A stretch of 64,000 nucleotides of DNA, from the NCBI RefSeq assembly GCF_042453785.1, contig NC_091673.1, positions 7,213,001 to 7,277,000 of the forward strand, written 5' to 3'. How positions within the stretch are numbered: position 1 is the first letter of the stretch; the number at the start of each line of letters is the position of its first letter. A model generated the notes under the pieces. That model had not been told where the DNA came from and ran no database searches. It saw only the letters and a list, made by a program, of their open reading frames with translations. Shown here piece by piece: positions 10,063 through 63,095 of the stretch. Both the position numbers and the translations under genes were made by a program. This stretch comes from Malus domestica. Taxonomy: Eukaryota > Streptophyta > Magnoliopsida > Rosales > Rosaceae.

Positions 10063-10822
10063 TTTTAATTATATTAAAATAAATTTTGTTTTTTATTATT
10101 TAAATACTTTTAATTTATGTGATAAATATTTAATTATATTTGTGAAACCCAATTATGCGCTACCTCAGTACATAACAGATTTTTTTACGAAATGGTAATA
10201 AAAGAACCACATTAATTGACGACACTCATTTTTTCAGACTATATTTATTGATTTTCAATTTTAAAGTTGCGATAAAAATCCTAAATATAATTGTTAGTGA
10301 CACTTGTGGGCCAATCACTTTTACAGCTAATTGAAATTTGTCACTCGGACTCGGACGTCTGTCCGTTTCAGACATGTCAAATTCTAAAGTTGCGTGCCAT
10401 TGCATTTGATTTGAGTATAAAATTCCATGGCTTTTCGTTATTTTCTGGTCAACTCTGAAGAAACTGAAACAAAAGCGCAGAAAACAACCAGGAGTACAGA
10501 AATGTGAAATCCATGCCCACCCACCCCACTCGGCCGTCTATGTTCTAACCAGCAAAAGTCTTCTGCCTATGTTTGGCCGACCCTAGAATATTCTTGGCTC
10601 GGATGTTTAAACCTTAATCAACAAGAGCAACTTCCGTATTACAATAACGTCACTATACCGATATCTCAAGTTATCATACATTATTACGTAGAAAAATTAA
10701 AATACATAACAATATATAATTGTATCAATAACATTCACTATATATGTAAATTTCAGATGTCTGAAAATACTAGTTTGAACTTTGATCAATGTTTTAAGTT
10801 GTTGTGAAGTTGAGATTCTACA
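10063..10822. other. Intergenic, nothing recognised
   Basis: AT-rich, no coding or repeat structure identified. Confidence 0.4.
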
Positions 10823-10831
10823 ATAAAATTA

Positions 10832-12071
10832 AGGGTAAATTACATAGTAACTCCACATGTTTGAGATCTATTACAACCTCATACAACATCTTTAAAACAT
10901 TTCACTTTCATACCCCACGTACTATTTTATTTCAAAATAATACATCCATTATATTTTTCATTCATTGATCTGTTAAATGCTGACGTGACTACCAAATGTG
11001 TGCCACGTGACAAAAATAATAATAATTATTATTATTTTTTTAAACTTGAATCTTCTAAAAATAAAAATAAAATTAAAATCCTTAGAAAACGCAGAACCCA
11101 CCCCCACAACATCTCCCCCCCCTTCTTCTCCCTCCCAAGCCTTCCAACCTCCTCCCTTTCCTACACTCTCTTCACCTCCCCTCCCATCCAAAAACCCACC
11201 CCGCCCCCACCTTCCCCGAGCCCTCTCTCCTCTTCACCCCCACCCCTTCCCCCCCCCCCCCGACACCCACCCTCGCACCCGCACCCACCCACCCTCTTCC
11301 CTCCTCTACACACCCCACTCCTTAAATCCACATTCATTCCTCCTATTTTCACCTCACGAACCCGGCAATGGCGGCGTAAACGGGTTATGGGTTTTTTTTT
11401 CTTTTTTTCTTTTTTCTAGGTTGCAGGTAGGGGGGTCGGGGGAAGAAGATGAAGATGGGGGAGAAGATAAGGGATGAGGAGGGGGAAAGACAAACTAAAG
11501 GGGTTTTTTTTTTTTTTTTGGTGGGTTGCAAGGGGAAGAAGATGAAGATGGGGGAGAAGGGAGGGGAGGAAGAGGGGGAAGACGAACTGAAAGGGTTTTT
11601 TTTTTTGTGGGTTGTAGGGGGAAGAAGATGAAGATGGGGGAGAAGAGAGGAGGAGGAGGGGGGGAAGACGAATTGAAGGGTTTTTTTTTTTTTCTGGGTT
11701 GCAAGGGTAAGAAGATGAAGATGGGGGAGAAGAGAGGAGCAGGGGGGAGGGAGGTGCGTCTACGTGGGTCGTGGGGGGATAAGGTTTCTGGGTTTGGGGG
11801 TTGCGGGGAGGTGTGTTTCAGCTTTTGTTTTTGGTTTTTTTATTTTTTATTTTTTTTATATAAATTTAGAAGATTCAAGTTTTTTTTTTTAATTATTATT
11901 TTTACCATGTGGCAGCCACATCAGCATTTAACGGATCAATGGATGAAAAATCTAACAGATGTATTATTTTGAAATAAAATAGTACGTGAGGTATGAAAGT
12001 GAAATATTTTAAAGATGTTGTATGGGGTTGTAATAGACCTCAAACCTGAGGGGTTACTATGTAATTTACCC
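10832..12071. mobile_element. Mutator-like non-autonomous element with about 240-bp TIRs
   Basis: The left 240 bp (from GGGTAAATTACATAGTAACT) and the right 240 bp are inverted copies of each other, both including the CATTTAACGGATCAATG-type segment. 9-bp direct repeats flank it: TAAAATTAA at 10823-10831 and TAAAATCAA at 12072-12080, one mismatch. Long TIRs and a 9-bp target duplication are characteristic of MULEs. There is no transposase. The interior is C-rich at 11097-11340 and G/A-rich with tandem repeats at 11395-11790. The proline-rich and glycine-rich frames over it are composition artefacts. Confidence 0.85.
11395..11760 (+). repeat. Purine-rich tandem repeat, about 4 units
   Basis: Four units of roughly 80-110 bp share GGGGGAAGAAGATGAAGATG, followed by GGGGGAGAAG, a poly-G/A tract, GACGAACTGAAAGGG and a run of 10-18 T. 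Unit length varies mainly in the T run. The array is inside the MULE-like element. Confidence 0.85.
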
Positions 12072-12074
12072 TAA

Positions 12075-12480
12075 AATCAATTAGTAATATAAGAATTAGT
12101 CCAACCTCTTATAAGCATGTGCATAGTTGGTCCCTCACAGATGTGGGACTTTATCTTCACATTCTCACACACATCTTTGTGTGTGGCGAATTTTTAAGCC
12201 TAACACATGGACAACAAGCACGGGAGGTAAGGAGTGACATAGAACACGTGTGGTCGTTGAGTTTCACATGTGGAAGAATCTGCTCTCATACCGTGAAAAA
12301 AGTTGAGGCACCATATATTAAACTAATTGGCAATATGAAGAGTAGTAAGCAATGTGAGATTCATTCTCAACACGTCTCTAATGTGTGACGAATTTTCAAG
12401 ACTAACACGTAAATAACATAATTTAAGTAATATGAAACACGTGTGAGAGTTGGACTTCATATTAAATGGATTGTTGTAGA
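12075..12480 (+). repeat. LTR-like repeat fragment (possible solo LTR), copy 1
   Basis: Carries CCTCTTATAAGCATGTGCA, GATGTGGGACTTT, GTGTGGCGAATTTTTAAGCC and GAACACGTGTGGTCGTTG. These phrases resemble a widespread plant LTR type ('Xttataagc...gatgtgggactt...'). A diverged copy with the same order is at 45608-45875. No ends or target duplication could be set. Confidence 0.45.
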
Positions 12481-13699
12481 CAGCCATATACTATAGTTTC
12501 ATCACATATGATATGAGAGAGGTTGGTTGAAACTCGAAAGAGACAGTGACCTTGTTTGCTTGCATGCAACAACTTTCAGAAAAACTGGGACATAAAGAAT
12601 AATAAGGCCACTAGCTACTTGAATTGTTTGTGGATAAGAGTTTTAAAAGGAAAAGATTTTCTGATCATCTGCAGTGCCAATGCCATAGTGGAGAACAATG
12701 CTCCCATCATGTTTTTGGATTTCTTTCTTTCTTTCCAGTGTCCTGAAGAGGAGCACGTACGTCTACAATAACATTAATACATAAAATTTATAAAAAAAAA
12801 TTATATATATGCGCAAACAACTGGTAGATATTTGATGGAACAGTAAGGAAAAGATAAAATGGATGAGATTTGTAGGCCAGCAAGTTGGCAACTTGAGCCA
12901 GAAAGTAGCTACATATATATATATTGTGATGCGAATTGGTCAATGACTCAAATGTAGAGGAATATTACTCATGGTGCATATCCTCACTTAACTACAAACA
13001 AAATAATATGATACAACGAATGACATCTTACACTCAAAGAGCTATTTCTTTTTGCATTTGTAAATTATAGTCTCACACGTTTTTCACATCGACAAAATGA
13101 CAGAGAGAAAAAAAGTTTAAATAACTCCAACTATTGCCGAAGCTTTTTATGATAAAATTTCACATCAATCAGACTCTCCAGGTGGCACTTAACAAGTTGG
13201 AGACAACGGTGTCACTAAAAAGATATTTGATCTGTGTCTCTTTGATAATTTGACATGACTATGATGGCAACTCACAAAAATCACAATATATAAGAAAGCA
13301 TACATGTTCTGTAGAGAGGTCAACGACTCAAACGCTAGTGAATTAGTAAGAGGCTTTCGATTCATACTGAATCCAAAAATGCGTTATTAATCACTAGGGT
13401 TTGTCTCCTGTCTGAAGGTAGCCATCGGTCGATAATAATTTAGAATGGTTGTCCTTCTTGTTGCAGATTAATCCACGCAATATGTTCAAGGAGGAAGATT
13501 TAATTAATTGAGAGATTTATTGTCTTAAGAGATGTACCCAATGGCTACTTATCCAAGCTCCAAACCACAAAATCCAAACAAGGGTTCAACACTATTATTT
13601 CTTGATATTATTTCGTCAGGAGATTATTTCTCAATTTATTTTCATTCCAAATTGAGTTTAATTGAATAGAAAATTAGAAATCAATTGGTTATATTTAAA
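12481..13699. other. Intergenic, nothing recognised
   Basis: AT-rich; no gene or defined repeat. Confidence 0.4.
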
Positions 13700-17272: not shown

Positions 17273-18586
17273 TTACATTTTCAACTGAGACAGTGGGCCC
17301 GGCGTACTGTTCACATTCGAAACCGAGACGTGCCACACCTTCACTTCTCCATCCAAGCTCCCACTGTAAACCGTAACGACGCCGTTCGACTGCTCCTCTT
17401 TAACCGCCACTAACGACTTCACCGGCTTCACGTGCCCCTCCAAAACCGCCAAACAACAAAAACTCCCGTCCTCGCCGCGTTGCCACACCCTCACCGTCCG
17501 ATCAGCCGACCCACTGAACAACAAATCCCCGACGTTGATCATACACAGTATAGCCTTCCGGTGACCTCTCAGCGCCCCCGTCACCGCCATATGGTTGGCG
17601 CTGTCCTCCCTCTCCCACACCAGGATTGAACGGTCGCAAGCCCCCGAAAACAGCACCGATCCGTCGTCGTTTATGGCCAAAGCGTTCACTGCCGACTTGT
17701 GCTTCTCCAGCGTCGCCACCAACACGTGGCGCTTCTCCCCGAACGGTTTGGACCACACCCGGATCCGACAATCCGCCGACCCGGTGTACACCGTCCCGTC
17801 GTTCGACACCACCACTGCGTTCACGGCGTCCTCGTGCGCCTTGACTGACTCGACGCAGCGGAGATCCGAGTCCCGCCAAATCTTCAGGCTCTTGTCCCAG
17901 GATACTGAGTAAATCAGGCCGTTGTTGACGGCGATGCCGGTGACGGCGTCAGCGTGTTGGATCCAGAGGCATTTCTTGTGGCGGCGGACGGTCACGTAGT
18001 TCTTGGGGAGGACGAAGCGGCGCAAACGGTCGTTGACGGTGGGGAGGGAGTTGAAAAGCTTGTGCTGTTTTCCCGCCGTCAACTGCCAGACTCGGATTTT
18101 GGAGTCCTGGTGCGAAGTGAAGATATTACCGTCGGAAAAATTAACGGACTTAACGGATCCCGAGGAGGCATCGTGGGCGTTGAATGAATCGAGAAGCGTG
18201 TGGTCCGTACGATCGTAGACGTTGATCTCGTGGCCCGATGCGGCGTAGAGGAGGTTGTGGTGGACGGCGAGGCATGTGATTGGGAGGGAGGGACGGCGGG
18301 GCGGGAGAGTGGCGAAGCAGAGGTGGGAGACGGAGAGGTCGAGGGGGTCTAGAGGGGAGAGTTTCTGGAGGGAGAGGACAGATGGCAGCGTCTGGAGGGA
18401 GAGGTTGCTTTGGAGGCTGCTACTGCCGTTGTCGCTTGCGCTGGTACTAGTGCTGGGAGTATCGGAGGAGCTGCTGGTATCGGAGGGTTTGAGTTTCGCC
18501 CGAGACGGTGACGTCTCAGGGTTGGAGAATGGGACGGTGGAGTGGCGGGTGGTGGAGGAGATGGCTAGCCAGGATCGGAACCTCAT
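17273..18586 (-). CDS. JGB: JINGUBANG-like WD40-repeat protein, 437 aa, intronless
   Basis: A single uninterrupted 438-codon frame from an ATG at 18586. After a Ser/Thr-rich N-terminal 95 residues come seven WD repeats, roughly at 101-128, 143-171, 213-240, 251-282, 298-330, 343-372 and 386-426. They end in typical WD/VW signatures such as DSKIRVWQL, DKSLKIWRD, DCRIRVWSK, DRSILVWER, DRTVRVWQR and DGEVKVWHV, so a complete seven-blade propeller is expected. The PKNYVTVRRHKKCLWIQHAD segment between blades 2 and 3 is typical of the plant JINGUBANG group. Arabidopsis JGB restrains pollen germination through a TCP4-linked jasmonate route; that role is inferred here only by family. The gene is markedly GC-richer than its surroundings. 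The minus-strand start is supported by a TATA-like motif about 50 bp upstream. Confidence 0.92.
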   Translation of the reverse strand: MRFRSWLAISSTTRHSTVPFSNPETSPSRAKLKPSDTSSSSDTPSTSTSASDNGSSSLQSNLSLQTLPSVLSLQKLSPLDPLDLSVSHLCFATLPPRRPSLPITCLAVHHNLLYAASGHEINVYDRTDHTLLDSFNAHDASSGSVKSVNFSDGNIFTSHQDSKIRVWQLTAGKQHKLFNSLPTVNDRLRRFVLPKNYVTVRRHKKCLWIQHADAVTGIAVNNGLIYSVSWDKSLKIWRDSDLRCVESVKAHEDAVNAVVVSNDGTVYTGSADCRIRVWSKPFGEKRHVLVATLEKHKSAVNALAINDDGSVLFSGACDRSILVWEREDSANHMAVTGALRGHRKAILCMINVGDLLFSGSADRTVRVWQRGEDGSFCCLAVLEGHVKPVKSLVAVKEEQSNGVVTVYSGSLDGEVKVWHVSVSNVNSTPGPLSQLKM

Positions 18587-18632
18587 GGCGGCGTCGGTGA
18601 TATAAAAGCTGAGTGAAACTTCGTGTGTTTTT

Positions 18633-18641
18633 CATATATAG
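18633..18641 (-). promoter_or_regulatory. Candidate TATA box of the WD40 gene
   Basis: CTATATATG on the minus strand lies about 50 bp before the ATG at 18586. The leader would be very short. Confidence 0.4.
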
Positions 18642-18689
18642 ATAAAGAAGATTTTGGACTGTAGGAGTGTGAGGGTAACGCGTGGAGGA

Positions 18690-18836
18690 GAGATTTTTCG
18701 GTACCAAATAAGTACATCATATATGTCATTATATAAATTGTGAAATATATATTATTACAAAATTAATAACTTAAAAAATAAAATTTCTGACTATTTACAT
18801 AAAAACACTACTCGTCTTTCCGTTACAATAAAAAGG
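18690..18836 (-). mobile_element. MITE family B, copy 4
   Basis: Starts GAGATTTTTCGGTACCAAAT, with core AAATTAATAACTTAAAAAAT. It sits about 100 bp upstream of the WD40 start codon, within the presumed promoter. Confidence 0.65.
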
Positions 18837-18977
18837 TAAGGGTACGGTTGGTACGAGACTCGGATGTTTCATAAAGGACGAGTTTTGCTGGTAGGGTTAG
18901 TTTGGTAATATGGGGGTGTGGATGGAGTGGGGTCCATGTAGGGTAGCTCAGCCAATTGGGGGTTACCAGGTAATACG

Positions 18978-19120
18978 CGTCAGGTACATCATGTGTCATT
19001 ATACAAAAGATGACATATGTGTATTAAAAAGTTAATAACTTAAAAAATAAAATTTTTCACTACTTCTATAAAAACATATGATGTTCCATCCGTGCTTCCG
19101 TGGTAAAGAAAAATTTCTTG
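18978..19120 (-). mobile_element. MITE family B, copy 5
   Basis: Core AAAAAGTTAATAACTTAAAA with GTACATCATGTGTCATTATA on its left. The left terminus is eroded. Confidence 0.55.
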
Positions 19121-19324
19121 AGAAGAAGGAAGAGGGCGGCTTTGGCAATTGGCATTTGCTTTTGGGATTTAAACAAGAGGAAGATGCTAAAGCCGTAAAG
19201 CGATATTGGAATTTGGAGGTCAAAACTCTGGGCTGCTTGTTCCACCAAGTTGGCTTTGGTCTAATTCTTATCCGTGTCTGAGCTGTGACCAGTAGGATGA
19301 GACTGTATTATTAGGATAGTTTCT

Positions 19325-19620
19325 TCGTGGAGTGTGACCAGGGCATGATTCGGGTGACTTCAAGATATGAGAAGGTATCCTGTTTTTGGTGAATGTTGTT
19401 TTATGGATGACGAAATATAAATTTGAATTTTTCTTCTTAATTAGGGAGAGGCGGTTGTATTTTATGGCATTTTTCGTGGAGTGAGGCCAGAACATGATTT
19501 AGATGATATCAAAATATAAGAAAGTATCTTGTTTTGGTGAGAGTTGTTTTATGAATGACGTGACCGAAGCATAAATTTGAACTTTCTTCCTCAATTAGGG
19601 AGAGGCGGTTGTTTTATGGT
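19325..19620 (+). repeat. Tandem duplication, 2 units of about 148 bp
   Basis: Both units contain a CCAG-(G/A)-(G/A)CATGATT start, a TATGAGAAGGTATCCTG or TATAAGAAAGTATCTTG segment, and AATTAGGGAGAGGCGGTTGT. No coding content was recognised. Confidence 0.7.
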
Positions 19621-20138
19621 TGACCTTGGTTGCGATTGTAGGACGTATGATATGCGGTAGTTTTCATGGATGTTTGAAACTTTAGGTTGAATGAAAGTCA
19701 TCCTACTTTTTTCGGAATGCTGCTAAGTAAGGTATGAAGATTCAAAGTTGATATTAGTTTCTTAATCACGTTTCTACAACTATGAGCTTCTGAAAATAGG
19801 GTTGAATACTTCTTTTTGTTACCACTATCTCTCAAGGTCAACACTACGTCGACACTATTCTTTTAATCAAATAAGGACAAATTCCTTAGCTGGGATTTCG
19901 TTGTTCAGTAAGCGAGATATCATATATCATCATACGCGTATAATGACCGTGTATTGACATATGTCTATATTTGTGTGTTTTTGTCCTTTTTTGGCTCTAT
20001 GGTATGAGGGGTGCTATGTAGGCAATATACGGTCACTATACAAACAAGACGAAGGTATTATTGATCCAGCTTTAGGGAATAGTGGAGCGGAGTTCCTCTT
20101 AAGATGAGGCTCGTGTGTGCAAACATTGAAACACACAA

Positions 20139-35388: not shown

Positions 35389-37340
35389 GACCATCTTTAA
35401 CCCTTGAACTAAAAATTAAATTTTTTAGTCCGAAAAATTTAACTTTTAGTCTAAAAATAGTTTTTCTGCTCTAATCATTTTAGCCCGGCATTATTAAAGA
35501 ATGAACTTAGGCTCATTTTTTTCTTAAATTAACTTTAAAAAAAATATTATGTAGACTATCGTAAATTAATTTTATGAATATTTTAATATAAAAATATTTA
35601 AATTTCGATAAATATTGAAAAATTACTAAATCTACTTTACATCAAAATGTGGAATAATAAGTACAATAATTATTGAAGACATCTAGATTAATAGAAATAA
35701 TATTAATACACACGACAATTAATAAAGTTCATAAACTTAATACAATTGAAAATTCTTAAACTACATAAACTTAATAATGATATTCACCATCTTGATTTTG
35801 TGATGGTGGACTTGGGATATAGCATTTAGATGAATTATCATCTTGAAATATACTCCTTCTGGCATCCCTTTGTAAAATTTCCCTTTGTTTACCACGTAAG
35901 TACTTCTTCCTCTATGGAGTGTATTTGTTGAGGTCATCCATCGTCAAATTTATTTCTAACCTCTCTTGCTCCCTATCCCCTTCTTCCTTCATTTGCAAAT
36001 GCATTTGGGCCACTTCTTCGTGGCGAGCGTTATGGGTTTTACTCAATTTTGCAATTCCGGTAGCAATGTGTCCACTCGAAGGATCTTGGGACTTCCCTTT
36101 TCTCTTTGCTTCCTTTTGCTTATCTCTTCCCGGGGACCTTGCAAAAGAAGGAGTTGGGGTCATTTCATCGACATCTTCATTGACACCTTCATCTCCGGCA
36201 TTTGTCGGTGCGGCTTCACGTTGAAATAATATTCTCCATTGTTGGTCCGCATCAGTTTCCCACCTCGGACAATCCTTGAGGACTTCCTAAGCATGTTGCA
36301 ACTTAAAAACTTGAATTTTTGGTGTTACTCTTGTCTTGTAAATTTCCATTGCTTTGTCACCTTATGCAAAAAATACATAAAAATAATTAGTTGCAAAATA
36401 ATATTATATACATGACAAATAAAATATTAAGAAAAAAACTTCCACTAGCCATGCCAACCACAGCTCTCTCCAAGCTTCCCTTCCATAAAGTGCATGATTT
36501 GTTGATAGTCATCCACCAATCGTAAACACCACCACTGTCCCTCCGGCCGCCGTTGCAGTTCTCTTGAAACTTTGCAATGATTTTATCCCACAAAACCTTT
36601 TTATTTTGATTTGTGCCAACTGCACCATCTTCGCTAACAGAAACTCATGCAAAGCATAAAGCAACATCTTCCTCACATGTCCAATTATGACCTCTAGTAT
36701 GCTCTCTTGCCATGTTAAACAATTTGGAAATGGAAAGAAATGGTAGAAAGATAAATTGGAAGAATTGTAGGAGAAAATTGAGTTTTGTATGGATGTTTGA
36801 ACAAATATATAGGTATTTATAGGGTTTTTTTGATCAATTTTGAGTTAAATAATTTTTTTTTTAAATTATTTTAGCCGTTGCATTTAAATTTGGGTTGTTA
36901 GAAATTTTTTTTTACCGTTAGATTTGATTATATTCAATTTCAGCTATTGGATTCAATGTATTTTAAAATAACATATTTTAAAAAAAATAAATTTTGAGTC
37001 TGGATCGTTGGAACAACTAACGGTCCTTAAATGGTGGTCGTTCGATGCGGAAAAGAGCCATTGGGCTCAGGGAAGTGGCCAACATGGGCCCTGACAGTGG
37101 GCCCTCCGCTGTTAGGAGCTGAATTGATGCGGGCCGTGTGGGGCGCGTCGGCGAGTGGGCGGGCCGAGAGTGGCCCAAATGCAGGCGAGTCCACGCGTTT
37201 TGGGATGGGGGGGATTTGGGGGGGTATTTGGCCCAATTTTAGCATTTGGCTTTTAGCCAAATGTTTTAGCTTGGGTTGGGTGGTGTTTGGGGAGGAATAA
37301 ATGGGGTAATTTGGCATTTAGCCCAGGGTTGGAGGATGCC
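35389..37340. mobile_element. PIF/Harbinger element with only the MYB-like ORF
   Basis: TIRs are GACCATCTTTAACCCTTGA at the left and GGCATCCTCCAACCCTGGG when the right end is reversed. The 3-bp TGA flanks both sides (35386-35388 and 37341-37343). Size is 1.95 kb. It carries the decayed MYB-like ORF at 35771-36713 but no DDE transposase. Confidence 0.8.
35771..36713 (-). pseudogene. Harbinger MYB-like (GST-T3-like) ORF2, degenerate
   Basis: Starts MAREHTRGHNWTCEEDVALC from an ATG at 36713. It then hits TGA in place of the expected Trp, and continues with KKVLWDKIIAKFQENCNGG. After shifts it reaches PGRDKQKEAKRKGKSQD and HEEVAQMHLQMKEEGDREQE, and near the end DDLNKYTP-stop-RKKYLRGKQREI. These are the MYB/SANT-like N-terminus, the RP-x-GRDKAKK motif and the C-terminal coiled region of the ORF2 protein that partners Harbinger transposases. 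At least two stops plus frameshifts make it a pseudogene. Confidence 0.8.
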
Positions 37341-51325: not shown

Positions 51326-54300
51326 TTTTAAATTAAATTTTATACCCCTAAAAAAACTATAATAATTATACGTACAAAATAAATAGATTTAAATCTACAT
51401 AATAAATATATATATATATATATATACACACACCATTGAACTTGATGGGATACACGAAACTAATTTCAACGATCAAACCGTCAAACTTGTTTGTATATGC
51501 TTCGAGATCGCATATGCCAAAAATCACAAAAAACAAACATTCAGAGATCAAGTAATGAGGCAAAACATTTTGACGGTGATAAAACAAAAAATCACGATTT
51601 AACGGTTATTTTAACTTCGATTTTGATGATTTTTTACAAGTACACTTTTTGACCCTATACAAATACAATGAATGAATTCGATCGTCAATTTAAAATATTT
51701 ACACATGTGGATACCACAAAATCTTATGTTATACTTAATGAAAGTATAAATAAACTCTAAGTGTTAGTGAATCTATCGTTTTTATGGAATACGAATTCTA
51801 TGAAACTAATTTCAACGATCCAACCATCAATCTTGTTTGTATATGCTTCGAGATCGCATACGCCAAAAATCACAAAAAACAAACATTCAGAGATCAAGTA
51901 ATGAGACAAAACTTTTCGACGGTTATAAAACAAAAAATAACGATTTAACGGTTATTTTAACTTCGATTTTGATAATTTTTTACAACTACACTTGTTGACC
52001 CTATACGAATACAATGAATGAATTCGATCGTCAATTTAAAATATTTACACAAGTGGATACCACACAATCTTATGTTATACTTAATGAAAGTATAAATAAA
52101 CTCTAAGTGTTAGTGAATCTATCGTTTTGATGGGATACGAATTCTATGAAACTAATTTCAACAATCCAACCGTCAATCTTATTTGTATATGCTTCGAGAT
52201 CGCATACGCCAAAAATCACAAAAAAAAAACATTCAGAGATCAAGTAATGAGACAAAAAATTTCGACGGTTATAAAACAAAAAATCACGATTTAACGGTTA
52301 TTTTAACTCCGATTTTGATGATTTTTTACAACTACACTTGTTGACCCTATACGAATACAATGAATGAATTCGATCATCAATTTAAAATATTTACACAAGT
52401 GTATACCACAAAATCTTATGTTATACTTAATGAAAGTATAAATAAACTCTAAATGTTAGTGAATCTATCGTTTTGATGAGATACGAATTCTATGAAACTA
52501 ATTTCAACGATCCAACCGTCAATCTTGTTTGTATATGCTTCGAGATCGCATATGCCAAAAATCACAAAAAAATAAACATTCAGAGATCAAGTAATGAGAC
52601 AAAACTTTTCGACGGTTATAAAACAAAAAATCACGATTTAACGGTTATTTTAACTTCGATTTTGATGATTTTTTACAAGTACACTTGTTGACCTTATAAG
52701 AATACAATGAATACATTCGATCGTCAATTTAAAATATTTACACAAGTGGATACCACAAAATCTTATGTTATACTTAATGAAAGTATAAATAAACTCTAAG
52801 TGTTAGTGAATCTATCGTTTTGATGGGATACAAATTCTATGAAACTAATTTCAACGATCCAACGGTCAAACTTGTTTGTATATGCTTCGAGATCGTATAC
52901 GCAAAAAATCACAAAAAATAAACATTCAGAGATCAAGTAATGAGACAAAACGTTTCGACGGTTGTAAAACAAAAAATCACGATTTAACGGTTATTTTAAC
53001 TTCGATTTTGATGATTTTTTACAACTACACTTGTTGACCCTATACGAATACAATGAATGAATTCGATCGTCAATTTAAAATATTTACACAAGTGAATACC
53101 ACAAAATCTTATGTTATACTTAATGAAAGTATAAATAAACTCTAAGTATCTATCGTTTGGATGGGATACGAATTCTATAAAACTAATTTCAATGATCTAA
53201 CCGTCAATCTTGTTTGTATATGTTTCGAGATCGCATATGCCAAAAATCACAAAAAACAAACATTCAGAGATCAAGTAATGAGACAAAAATTTTTAACGGT
53301 TATAAAACAAAAAATCACGATTTAACGGTTATTTTAACTCCGATTTTGATAATTTTTTACAACTAAACTTGTTGACCCTATACGAATACAATGAATGAAT
53401 TCGATCGTCAATTTAAAATATTTACACAAGTGGATACCACAAAATCTTATTTTATACTTAATGAAAGTATAAATAAACTCTAAGTGTTAGTGAATCTATC
53501 GTTTTGATGGGATACAAATTCTATGAAACTAATTTCAACGATCAAACCGTCAAACTTGTTTGTATATGCTTTGAGATCGCATACGCCAAAAATCACAAAA
53601 AACAAACATTCAGAGATCAAGTAATGAGACAAAACTTTGCGACGGTTATAAAACAAAAAATCACGATTTAACGGTTATTTTAACTTCGATTTTGATAATT
53701 TTTTACAACTACACTTGTTGACCCTATACGAATACAATGAATGAATTCGATCGTCAATTTAAAATATTTACACAAGTGGATACCACAAAATCTTATGTTT
53801 TACTTAATGAAAGTATAAATAAACTCTAAGTGTTAGTGAATCTATCGTTTTGATGGGATACGAATTCTATGAAACTAATTTCAACGATCCAACCGTCAAA
53901 CTTGTTTGTATATGCTTCGAGATCGCATACGCCAAAAATCACAAAAAACAAACATTCAGAGATCAAGTAATGAGACAAAACTTTTCGACGGTTATAAAAC
54001 AAAAAATCACGATTTAACGGTTTTTTTAACTCCGATTTTGATGATTTTTTACAACTACACTTGTTGACCCTATACGAATATAATGAATGAATTCGATCGT
54101 CAATTTAAAATATTTACACAAGTGGATACCACGAAATCTTATGTTATACTTAATGAAAGTATAAATAAAGTCTAAGTATCTATGGTTTGGATGAGATACG
54201 AATTCTATGAAACTAATTTCAATGATCCAACCGTCAATCTTGTTTGTATAATTTGAATGGTTTTTAATGTTTGGTTTTTCTATACTTAGTTTATGCGGAA

Positions 54301-59076: not shown

Positions 59077-62000
59077 TTACTCTTCACCAGAACACGAAGG
59101 CAAATCGCTACGCTGGCCAAAAATATCAGGAATTCCATCCCAGTTCTTCTCCCTAGTTTCCCAATACCCTCCCACATAACTATAACAACCCTCCTCGTCT
59201 TTCCGAAACCATCTTGGCTGCCACCCTCTCTCTTGCAACTTTCTTGCCTGCACAAAATTATCAACAGTTGCTAAATACAATTTCAGAATAGAATAAAAGT
59301 TTACAAATAAATTACACTGCCTACAGAAGCCCATCAATTCCCCGAAAACACCAGGGAAATGGCTTTAGCTACAAATTCAGTTTAGAGCTGAGTCCTGAAT
59401 CTCAAACTCTCAAGATTATAGGCCAGATATGAGATTGAAGTCATTTTCATTTCAATTAAATTCAAGCGGACATTAGGCTCGCAATTAGAAGCAAGAACGC
59501 ATGAAAAGAGGAAGATGAATGGATGAATAATGGATCAAAAGGAGAAAGAGGATGTACAGGGGGTACCTGTCTTTGAAGCTGTTCAAGTCTTAGCTTCTCT
59601 GCATTTGCCAATTCATATTCACCATTCTCCAAATGCCTTTGATCTGGCCTTAGCCTTGAGTCCGTCGGCGGTAACTTCTCCAATAAGCCAGGTGTCAGTT
59701 CATTAAGGGAAATTGCAAAAGGGGAGAAATTGTATCTTGTCTTGGTAACATAGTCATCTCTTTCCCAGAGAAGCACAGCCTCTGTCATTGGATCATAACC
59801 ATTTGGTTTTGTAGTTGGATCTCCCAGCACATAGTACATTGCCTCGTCCCACTTACCCACCAACATTGCTACATTCTCTCCAGTTCTATTGTCTTGAACA
59901 AATCCATGAACCTGAAATTTCATGAATTTATGTAAAGCCCAGCAATGGCTAAAAACTAAGCGTAACATAAACATGAAAATCGGGCCGCCCTGGGGAGAAT
60001 TTAGACTTTAGCTAACCTGATGTGGATTTCGGTCTATGATAGACTGCTCCTTGAACTTCAGCTTGCAGGAATAATTGCCACTGCCCCTGATGCGCATGGT
60101 GCCGTAGTGGTCACAATAAATTTTTCCTAGTATGATATTGTATATAGAGGTAGTGACCTTGCTCCACTGAAATGTCTCCCCGTCCTCAAACTGCAAGGAA
60201 AGGGTACCCACAGGATCAAGCTGAATAGAACGCCCCCAAAACTTGCCTTTGAGATTGGATTCCGCCCAGAATTTCCAACCTCTTCCTTCACAATGACAAG
60301 CAACAACCATTGGGTGGTGACTCACCTGAGTGCAAGCTCATCCTTGTTAGCCAACAATCAATGGTTCATAAACATTTGACAATTATCTGTGATGCTTCAA
60401 ATTCAATGAGTCCTAACAACACAAAGCAACAAAGAGGCTACTTTTATCTTTTACCGTTCTTTATACTTAATGGACAGAAATCCATTCAAAAGGGTACTAC
60501 TAGACATCAATACTAGAAAATTTGACAACGTGCATAACCTTTTCAGAGAAAAAACGAAGTCCTTTATCTGGATAGTCAGCCTCATAGGTCTCCCCGAGGA
60601 GAGGATTAAAGGGTTTGCACTGCCGACCTTCTGTTGATGCATAGCCAGATACAGCAAAAGCTGCAACGTTTAGAATTCTCATTAAATCATTCCCCTGCAC
60701 CACATGAAGTCCAAATTAATTTGAATACTATGAACAACACTCCCTCAATCCAAATTAATTCATGTCCCAAAGTTCAGACAATTAGGTGATGCATAGAAGG
60801 GTACAACAGAGGACCTTACCTGCTTTCCCCATTCTGATGCTCGATCAACCAAGTTTGAATATTCGAGATCTTCAAAGCACTTTTGCAACGATGAGAGTGG
60901 TTCATTAAAATAAACAGGAAGACAAACTCCAGACAAGTCCTTCCCAATATTATCCTTGATAATCGACCACAAGCCAATATGCTTCTCTTTCTCCTTGGGT
61001 TCTGGCAAATCATCCCTCCTTTTCACATATGGATATTTAATTGTCTTGATCTCCTCAACTCCATGCAATCGACCAGAAAAGAAAGAATCTCTTTCAAATA
61101 TACAACCATTTCCCAAACCTTCCTTGCTCCGACAGGAAGCACTTCTTTGAGCATCTGAAGACAAAATAATTCATATCAAATTATGTTTCTTTAATTAATC
61201 AGAAAGAAAGATTCTCTATCGTATACCATTTCCCAAGCCTTCTCTACTCCGATAGGAAGCACTTCTTAGAGCTTCTGAAGACAAAATGTCATGTGTATCG
61301 AAATATGTTCCTTCATCTTCGTCTGTTTCAACATCTGCCCCATCTTGACTTTCGTTATCTGCATCGGAATCACTTGCACTGCCCTCAGATAAGACGGAGT
61401 AGAAATCTGTGGCATGAGCAAAACCATAATACAATCAAAACTAAAGGTCAAATTTAAATTTTCATGATAATAAATCAGAAACTGTGTATGTGGCTTGAAA
61501 CCTTTCCAGTACTACCGACACTTAAATCATCATTATACATCTCATATGTGAAAACAATGAGTTCAACAAAATACTATGATAATGGAAAGATAACTGACCA
61601 CTAAATCTCCCATTCCCCTGTCCATATGACTCACGCTCCTTTGTTTCATCCACTACTGTAGTTTCCAGCTCTATTTTTTCTGTCTGCAAAAGGAAATTTA
61701 GATAGGGATTTACTTTCCGACTAGCAAGCTTTCCACCACCCCTTATTGCGGCACATGTATAAAGCAGAAACTTAGTGATTAAATGCATGGAAATACCTCT
61801 AATTGCCTCAATGACTCCAACAGCATCACATGTTTACGCCGAAGACCCTTCAACTGATTTTGAAGCTCTGACACTTCTAAGAGCATAATTGACTCGCAGT
61901 CTTTGATCACCGGCTCACCAATTCCCTCCTGTGCTAATCTTAGTCTTAGCTTCTCTGTTGAAACAACTATATCTTCCGAAGGTACCAAATCATTGCTCGT

Positions 62001-63095
62001 AAACACTCTAGGGAAAAGATCTTTAGCACCCAGCAGTGCCTCGATCCATGTAGCTCGGTCCTCTCTGGTCACACACCGCAAATGAAGAGTTTTAGTTCCT
62101 GTGAATATGGAAAGCCGTTTATCATCTGATTTGCTGGCACGAATTGAAGAGACCTGTAAACCAGACCACTTCGAATTCAGTAACCAAAAACCAAAAACTC
62201 AAAAGTACAGACCGTGCGCATTCGAGCACGCATTTTTATGCATCATCAAACAAAACACAAGCATTCGTCTCAACGTATTCGAGTTTTTGTTGGTCCTTCA
62301 AGATTGATGAATACTTTTGGTGGGTATCAATCAATGTTTTATAAAAATTCCATGAAAAGTGTAGGAATATTAAACATTTTCTGTAGCTTTCGAGTCCCCC
62401 CACTCACATTACAAATATACAAACTCAGCAAAAGGCCCCAGATAATCCCAAAAAATAAACTCAATGCATACATACTTCTCATTTGCTAAATATAGCATCA
62501 GCTAAAAATAGCATTTCTACTATATCCCAAACAATGGCTTCACATTTCTGTGATAAGCAAAAGCTCATACCTTCAAATGCACTTCTCCGAAAGGCTTCCA
62601 CGGCCTCGCCGCCGGACCTCCGAGCCGATTACTGCCCCAATTCGCCTTCTTCATGTACCTCAGCGAGTTCTCTCCGATCACCCTCAATCCCTTCTCTCTC
62701 ACCTGGCTAACCAAAATCTTGTCCGGTCCATGAACCTTGTAGTACGAAAACACGCCGTCTTCGAGCACAAACCACCGCGACCGCCACCCCTTCCCGTAGT
62801 TCACCCACTTGTACAAAATCCCAGCCAAGCTGCCGCACACGCCGCCGCCAAACACCTTCGAATCCCTAGCTTCGCTGATCGTATCCTCAACCTCGTGGCC
62901 CGCGGCGGCGGAAGCCCTGTCCGATTCGGTCCCGGCCGACGAGACCTGAGCCGAGTAGCTCGGCTTCGAGCCGTAGCTGACGTTCCGGATCGGAGCCTCC
63001 GAGGCTACCTGGCACTGACCCGACTGCTTGGCAGCCACCGGCGTGCCCCGGTCCCGATCGATCGAAACCGGCGCAATGCAGCACAGCGGGTTCAT
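59077..63095 (-). CDS. ORP1C: Oxysterol-binding protein-related protein, ORP1C/1D-like, 9 exons, 820 aa
   Basis: Minus-strand exons 63095-62571, 62153-61797, 61683-61599, 61406-61227, 61154-60820, 60694-60539, 60325-60017, 59911-59567 and 59247-59077 join to 821 codons through GT-AG sites. The start [16 protein letters not shown] is the conserved ORP1 beginning. A PH domain (about 88-222, [20 protein letters not shown]) is expected to bind phosphoinositides. A coiled coil follows (about 262-294, [20 protein letters not shown]). The lipid-binding ORD (about 430-790) contains the family fingerprint as EKVSHHPM at about 543-550, together with [16 protein letters not shown] and [18 protein letters not shown]. 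ORPs exchange sterols or phosphoinositides at membrane contacts. The acidic linker (exons 4-5) contains a 120-bp tandem duplication that creates a 72-nt intron and a repeated peptide ([16 protein letters not shown] and [16 protein letters not shown]). Confidence 0.93.
61084..61323 (-). repeat. 120-bp tandem duplication across ORP exons 4-5 and the intron between
   Basis: Plus-strand columns at 61084-61203 and 61204-61323 align at a constant offset of 120 bp. Strong blocks are CCATTTCCCAA, CTCCGA-AGGAAGCACTTCTT, GAGC-TCTGAAGACAAAAT and, weaker, the flanks. The 72-nt intron (61155-61226) is made of the right part of one copy plus the left part of the other. Confidence 0.85.

Follow-up and report, generated by a model that had tools for sequence, protein, structure and literature searches.

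Intron 4 of an ORP1D-like gene in the apple genome appears to be built from former coding sequence. The reading favored here, to which a probability of about 0.86 is assigned, is that a coding exon was partly duplicated in tandem and that the pairing of a donor in the first copy with an acceptor in the second turned the stretch between them into an intron, before the contig 13 and contig 16 homoeologues parted. The gene lies in a window of 64,000 nucleotides (the whole stretch of DNA that was analysed; contig 13, 7.213-7.277 Mb), and the analysis was extended by searches of the window's own assembly, which comprises 651 Mb in 19 contigs.

The gene model was made by hand, with eight GT-AG introns and a frame that stays open over 820 residues (Table 1). 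At the protein level, the plant ORP1-type layout is present, a PH domain being followed by an Oxysterol_BP domain (Pfam E-values of 5.8e-127 for Oxysterol_BP, 3.8e-16 for PH_11 and 2.5e-08 for PH). The ORP1D-type motif pair is found as well, with DFYSVLS at residue 323 and TYFDTHD at residue 356. Arabidopsis Orp1d has been described as carrying DFYSV-S 30 residues ahead of PYFDT-D, both motifs being termed FFAT-like and DFYSV-S the weaker of them (PMC3261905), a pattern that the gene studied here shares. A survey of cotton reports 8-10 exons in most ORP genes, without their positions (PMC9830788).

Table 1. Positions, within the window, of the ORP1D-like gene and of the features discussed in the text
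Feature	Position	Strand	Description
ORP1D-like gene	59077..63095	(-)	9 exons, 820 aa, PH and Oxysterol_BP domains
Exon 4	61227..61406	(-)	180 nt, phase 1 at start and end; encodes DFYSVLS and TYFDTHD, both FFAT-like (cf. PMC3261905)
Copy 1 of tandem unit	61193..61313	(-)	121 nt; coding as far as 61227, then 5' half of the intron
Intron 4	61155..61226	(-)	72 nt, phase 1, GTATAC...TTTTGTCTTCAG, 24% GC, three in-frame stops if retained
Copy 2 of tandem unit	61067..61191	(-)	125 nt; 3' part of the intron as far as 61155, then coding
Exon 5	60820..61154	(-)	335 nt; begins with the second coding copy, then the stretch leading into the sterol-binding domain and the first part of that domain

The tandem duplication spans exons 4 and 5 on the minus strand. 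In a gapped alignment its two copies, between which one base stays unaligned, reach a score of 65.5, while 1,000 dinucleotide shuffles gave 18.0 at most and 10.5 on average; the ungapped blocks shared by the copies measure 63 nt (89% identity, spacing 120 nt) and 23 nt (83%, spacing 125 nt). The initial annotation had placed two 120-bp copies head to tail at 61084-61323. The tandem copies are real and that placement closely approximates the extents given in Table 1, but the units are not strictly 120/120, the 5' half of the intron taking a 5-nt gap against copy 2.

The source sequence of intron 4 was found directly beside it by alignment and shuffles, with 71 of the 72 intron bases falling inside aligned copy 1 or aligned copy 2. 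The intron's 5' half corresponds to the coding sequence that follows GLGNG in copy 2, and its 3' half to coding sequence in copy 1. When the halves were aligned separately, the 3' half scored 19.5 against the copy-1 exon, which none of 5,000 shuffles attained, and the highest score at an unrelated place in the window was 16.0. For the 5' half the score against the copy-2 exon was 16.0, attained by one shuffle in 5,000, and the highest score at an unrelated place, near 35600 on the minus strand of the window, was 15.0. By itself the 5' half looks like a weak, marginal match, and it becomes convincing because it stands in register with the remainder of the tandem unit. Together, the alignments support the descent of both intron halves from coding sequence, as had been proposed earlier, and they place the donor in copy 1 and the acceptor in copy 2, in keeping with the suggestion that the two sites were drawn from different copies. 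The idea that the former coding run TTTTGTCTTCAG would now act as pyrimidine tract and acceptor is likewise borne out by the alignment of the copies.

Intron 4 is predicted to be spliced out, and the junctions 61227/61154 put forward by the initial annotation agree with the hand-made model. The in-frame TAG that it saw early in the intron exists, but it is one of three stops met on straight reading. The donor agrees with the consensus at 5 of 9 positions, the lowest value among the eight donors of the gene; that of the contig-16 homoeologue agrees at 6 of 9 and is joint lowest with three others. Novel introns of Drosophila have been reported to have weaker splice sites (PMC2809761). In both homoeologues, candidate branch points fitting the YTNAY motif are found at distances of 21, 40 and 44 nt from the end of the intron. 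The GC content of the intron is 0.24 on contig 13 and 0.26 on contig 16, compared with 0.43 in exon 4 and 0.40 in exon 5 of the contig-13 gene. In the donor region, copy 1 of the contig-13 gene has five bases fewer than copy 2 (now GTATAC) and copy 1 of the contig-16 homoeologue one fewer (GTGTGT).

Within a single unit, the acceptor-like site lies 48 nt from the donor-like site and both are in phase 1. Splicing of the copy-1 donor to the copy-2 acceptor would therefore add 48 nt, or 16 residues, whatever the length of the unit; the net gain of 16 residues after removal of 72 nt, claimed earlier, is confirmed from the frames. No duplicated AGGT of the Rogers type underlies the two sites: the donor ATG/GTATAC and the acceptor TTCAG/ATG occupy separate positions of the unit, and 16 residues are added. 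Intron 4 is well supported by sequence as an exonic tandem-duplication intron that falls outside the classic AGGT form.

The assembly search revealed a match on contig 16, at 7.350 Mb, that shares the duplication. Its GT...AG intron measures 77 nt (predicted junction 7350611/7350533), contains stops and, not being a multiple of three, would shift the frame if retained. When spliced, this gene is intact, with 9 exons and 819 residues (Ks 0.203 and Ka 0.027 relative to the contig-13 gene), and its GT and AG occupy positions corresponding to those on contig 13. In the segment that begins at about 25.6 kb of the window and extends 20 kb past it (to 84 kb), the listed matches of at least 150 bases mostly follow the order of contig 16, 7.305-7.375 Mb; several listed matches are out of order and are probably repeats. 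Apple Chr13 and Chr16 are both reported to be almost collinear with Gillenia Chr04 (PMC8558331), with which the pairing of contigs 13 and 16 as homoeologues would agree if contig number stands for chromosome number, as it presumably does. Comparison of the two homoeologues gives a Ka/Ks of 0.16 (Ks 0.26) for the part ahead of exon 4, 0.05 (Ks 0.31) for exon 4 itself and 0.13 (Ks 0.15) for the 438 codons of exons 5-9. For the 16 extra residues the ratio is 0.87, a figure resting on only 4 changes.

A search of the assembly with the conserved part of the protein gave 8 matches among the 10 candidates scored, namely the two homoeologues, two partial gene copies that hold the intron and four other ORP loci on contigs 15, 8, 6 and 4; the assembly may contain more ORP genes. 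All four of these non-duplicated loci cross the intron-4 site in one open exon. The distance from the FDT/HDT motif to the P-x-V motif is 51 residues in the four paralogues compared with 66 (50 + 16) in both homoeologues. The rest of the gene was viewed on contigs 15 and 8, and about 3.2 kb on contigs 6 and 4. These paralogues point to an ancestral state of one unit without the intron, with the proviso that they belong to this same genome, where intron loss could have occurred. A pattern search of non-plant genome contigs (68 matches) and viral contigs (10 matches) gave no relative among these matches.

The partial gene copies (matches at C13:28835999-28836318, within C13:28829001-28839000, and at C10:10880777-10881093, within C10:10873501-10883500) hold exons 2 and 3, part of exon 5 and introns, among them the new intron at 93-94% identity. 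Exon 4 is mostly missing from them, a stop codon is present, and both show the five-base gap at the donor. They have common breakpoints and flanks and are about 93-95% alike over kilobases, as if one derived from the other or both had been carried by a mobile element. A tandem array occupies positions 51456-54250 of the window (period 346, about 8 copies, 94% matches), and arrays about 82-86% like it start no more than about 200 bases from either partial copy, a hint that an element formerly close to the ORP1D-like locus picked up a gene fragment. In C13:28829001-28849000, a direct repeat of 2,491 nt, 100% identical over the part compared, was observed at 10740-13230 and 17510-20000 of that stretch, 6.8 kb apart; it may represent a recent duplication or an LTR element of young age.

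The age of the gain was approached by comparing four units, that is, two copies in each of two homoeologues; the two partial copies (C10 and C13b) were left out of both the site-pattern count and the distance ratio, as they have lost most of copy 1 to deletions. Informative sites group the units copy by copy in 15 cases, by chromosome in 0 and crosswise in 0. The mean distance between copies is 0.249 and that between homoeologues 0.091, a ratio of 2.75 (bootstrap 1.80-4.52 in 2,000 resamples, with a share of 0.0 at or below 1) which, over a region of about 120 columns, serves as a guide and not as a date because constraint differs between intron and exon. Site pattern and ratio therefore place the duplication before the homoeologue split, and on this evidence the gain predates the duplication of the contig 13 and contig 16 chromosomes. 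By these distances Gillenia, and perhaps Prunus, both of them outside the genome doubling, would be expected to carry it too. The earlier description of the intron as recent in the lineage is not supported: duplication and intron recur in the contig-16 gene, and 15 of 15 informative sites indicate that the copies arose ahead of the separation of the two genes.

The aligned sequences, their reading frames, the contig-16 homoeologue and the four paralogues lead us to infer the following order of events. A single coding exon of the ORP1D-like gene would have begun ahead of the FFAT-like motif and reached into the first part of the sterol-binding domain, and by chance would have held the acceptor-like TTTTGTCTTCAG 48 nt upstream of a donor-like AATG/GT, both in phase 1. 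A tandem duplication of about 125 bp in that exon would then have enabled the spliceosome to join the copy-1 donor to the copy-2 acceptor. Removal of the intervening stretch would leave exactly 48 nt, lengthening the protein by 16 residues in frame, and the spliced stretch would thereafter have been free to accumulate stops and frame-shifting indels. All of this would have taken place before the contig 13 and contig 16 homoeologues parted.

Several other explanations were weighed. Were the stretch left unspliced, the duplication would have broken the gene and the protein would stop after the PH domain and the FFAT-like region. The weak donor fits such an outcome, but the frames are open past the intron in both homoeologues, and the Ka/Ks of 0.13 over the downstream codons is hard to explain without intron removal. 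Unspliced RNA would moreover contain stops in both homoeologues and a frameshift in one, and the GT and AG positions match between them, all of which makes a broken gene very unlikely. Slightly less probable again is an older intron at this site, with a later duplication copying exon and intron edge, as documented in plants for potato RdRp (PMC4974935). Here the 5' half of the intron corresponds to copy-2 coding sequence, marginally when taken alone, and the 3' half to copy-1 coding sequence; therefore, neither half needs an older intron, and the site is free of one in 4 of the 4 paralogues found.

A young gain could also have been passed to the second homoeologue by gene conversion, a process that occurs between homoeologues of polyploid-derived genomes. 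The homoeologous units differ by 8-9% plus indels, however, and the copies are 2.75 times as distant from each other as the homoeologues are; the copies would therefore already have been old when the two loci parted, and conversion is held to be just as improbable as the older intron. Assembly errors can produce tandem copies too, but in the contig-13 gene 23 of the 119 sites aligned between the copies differ, and the intron is present at 4 places of the genome, three of them 88-94% identical to intron 4 of contig 13, so an artefact is scarcely credible. Accordingly, the preferred reading remains the creation of the intron from duplicated coding sequence ahead of the homoeologue split.

A possible consequence concerns exon 4, which holds both FFAT-like (ER-tethering) motifs and which intron 4 separates from the beginning of the sterol-binding domain; each of the four paralogues has its FDT or HDT motif and that beginning together in one open exon. 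Exon 4 (168 nt in the homoeologue) is in phase 1 at both ends in both genes and is thus a frame-neutral cassette, a symmetry that alone is not special because exons 2, 6, 7 and 8 are likewise frame-neutral. Skipping it keeps the frame open in both homoeologues with loss of the YFDT-D motif. Coding copy 1 of both homoeologues also keeps the acceptor-like TTTTGTCTTCAG (61275-61286) in phase 1, so that it is a candidate in-frame alternative acceptor for intron 3; splicing to it would remove 132 nt (120 nt in the homoeologue) and yield an in-frame product without YFDT-D. A further reading, held to be unlikely, is that the intron gain made the FFAT-bearing half of the old exon a stand-alone, frame-neutral cassette that can be skipped. 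If such a cassette were used, one chance duplication would have given a splicing switch for the ER tethering of a lipid-transfer protein via VAP.

Among titles and abstract openings, with subscription journals mostly outside the coverage, no published account of intron 4 was found. By its alignments the intron belongs to a known kind, the exonic tandem-duplication intron; unlike in the closest plant case found, potato RdRp, both of its splice sites would have been taken from coding sequence. Intron 2 of that potato gene (PGSC0003DMG402000361; Ma, Lan and Niu 2016, PMC4974935) resembles it as a plant intron that arose through tandem duplication, involving inserted exon sequence and a cryptic donor of exonic origin. 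According to that account, however, an intron that was already in place supplied the potato acceptor, pyrimidine tract and putative branch site, and splicing is confirmed by RNA-seq reads, whereas splicing of the ORP1D-like intron is predicted from sequence. Unlike the potato event, the one described here dates from before a homoeologue split. As both homoeologous genes preserve it, they allow a comparison of how the splice sites were remodelled once the intron had been gained.

The model of Rogers (1989) and the vertebrate ATP2A1 intron, as described in PMC4974935, share with intron 4 the derivation of both splice sites from an exonic tandem duplication, but that model involves a duplicated AGGT and an unchanged peptide, while here the sites are 48 nt apart and not at an AGGT, and 16 residues are gained. 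Added DNA that partly still codes has been reported in Bap170 of Drosophila pseudoobscura, where 218 bp were gained, 206 are spliced out and an imperfect 8-residue repeat is left on each side of the intron (PMC2809761); that case differs in being an animal gene and in its smaller coding remainder. Tandem-duplication introns at novel positions in Drosophila likewise involve duplicated coding sequence of which one copy became intron, but as reported they are centred on AG/GY proto-splice sites (PMC2891723), whereas the ORP1D-like donor and acceptor lie at separate sites. This arrangement shows how such duplications can be tolerated, the frame being decided by the shared phase of two cryptic sites and not by the length of the duplication.
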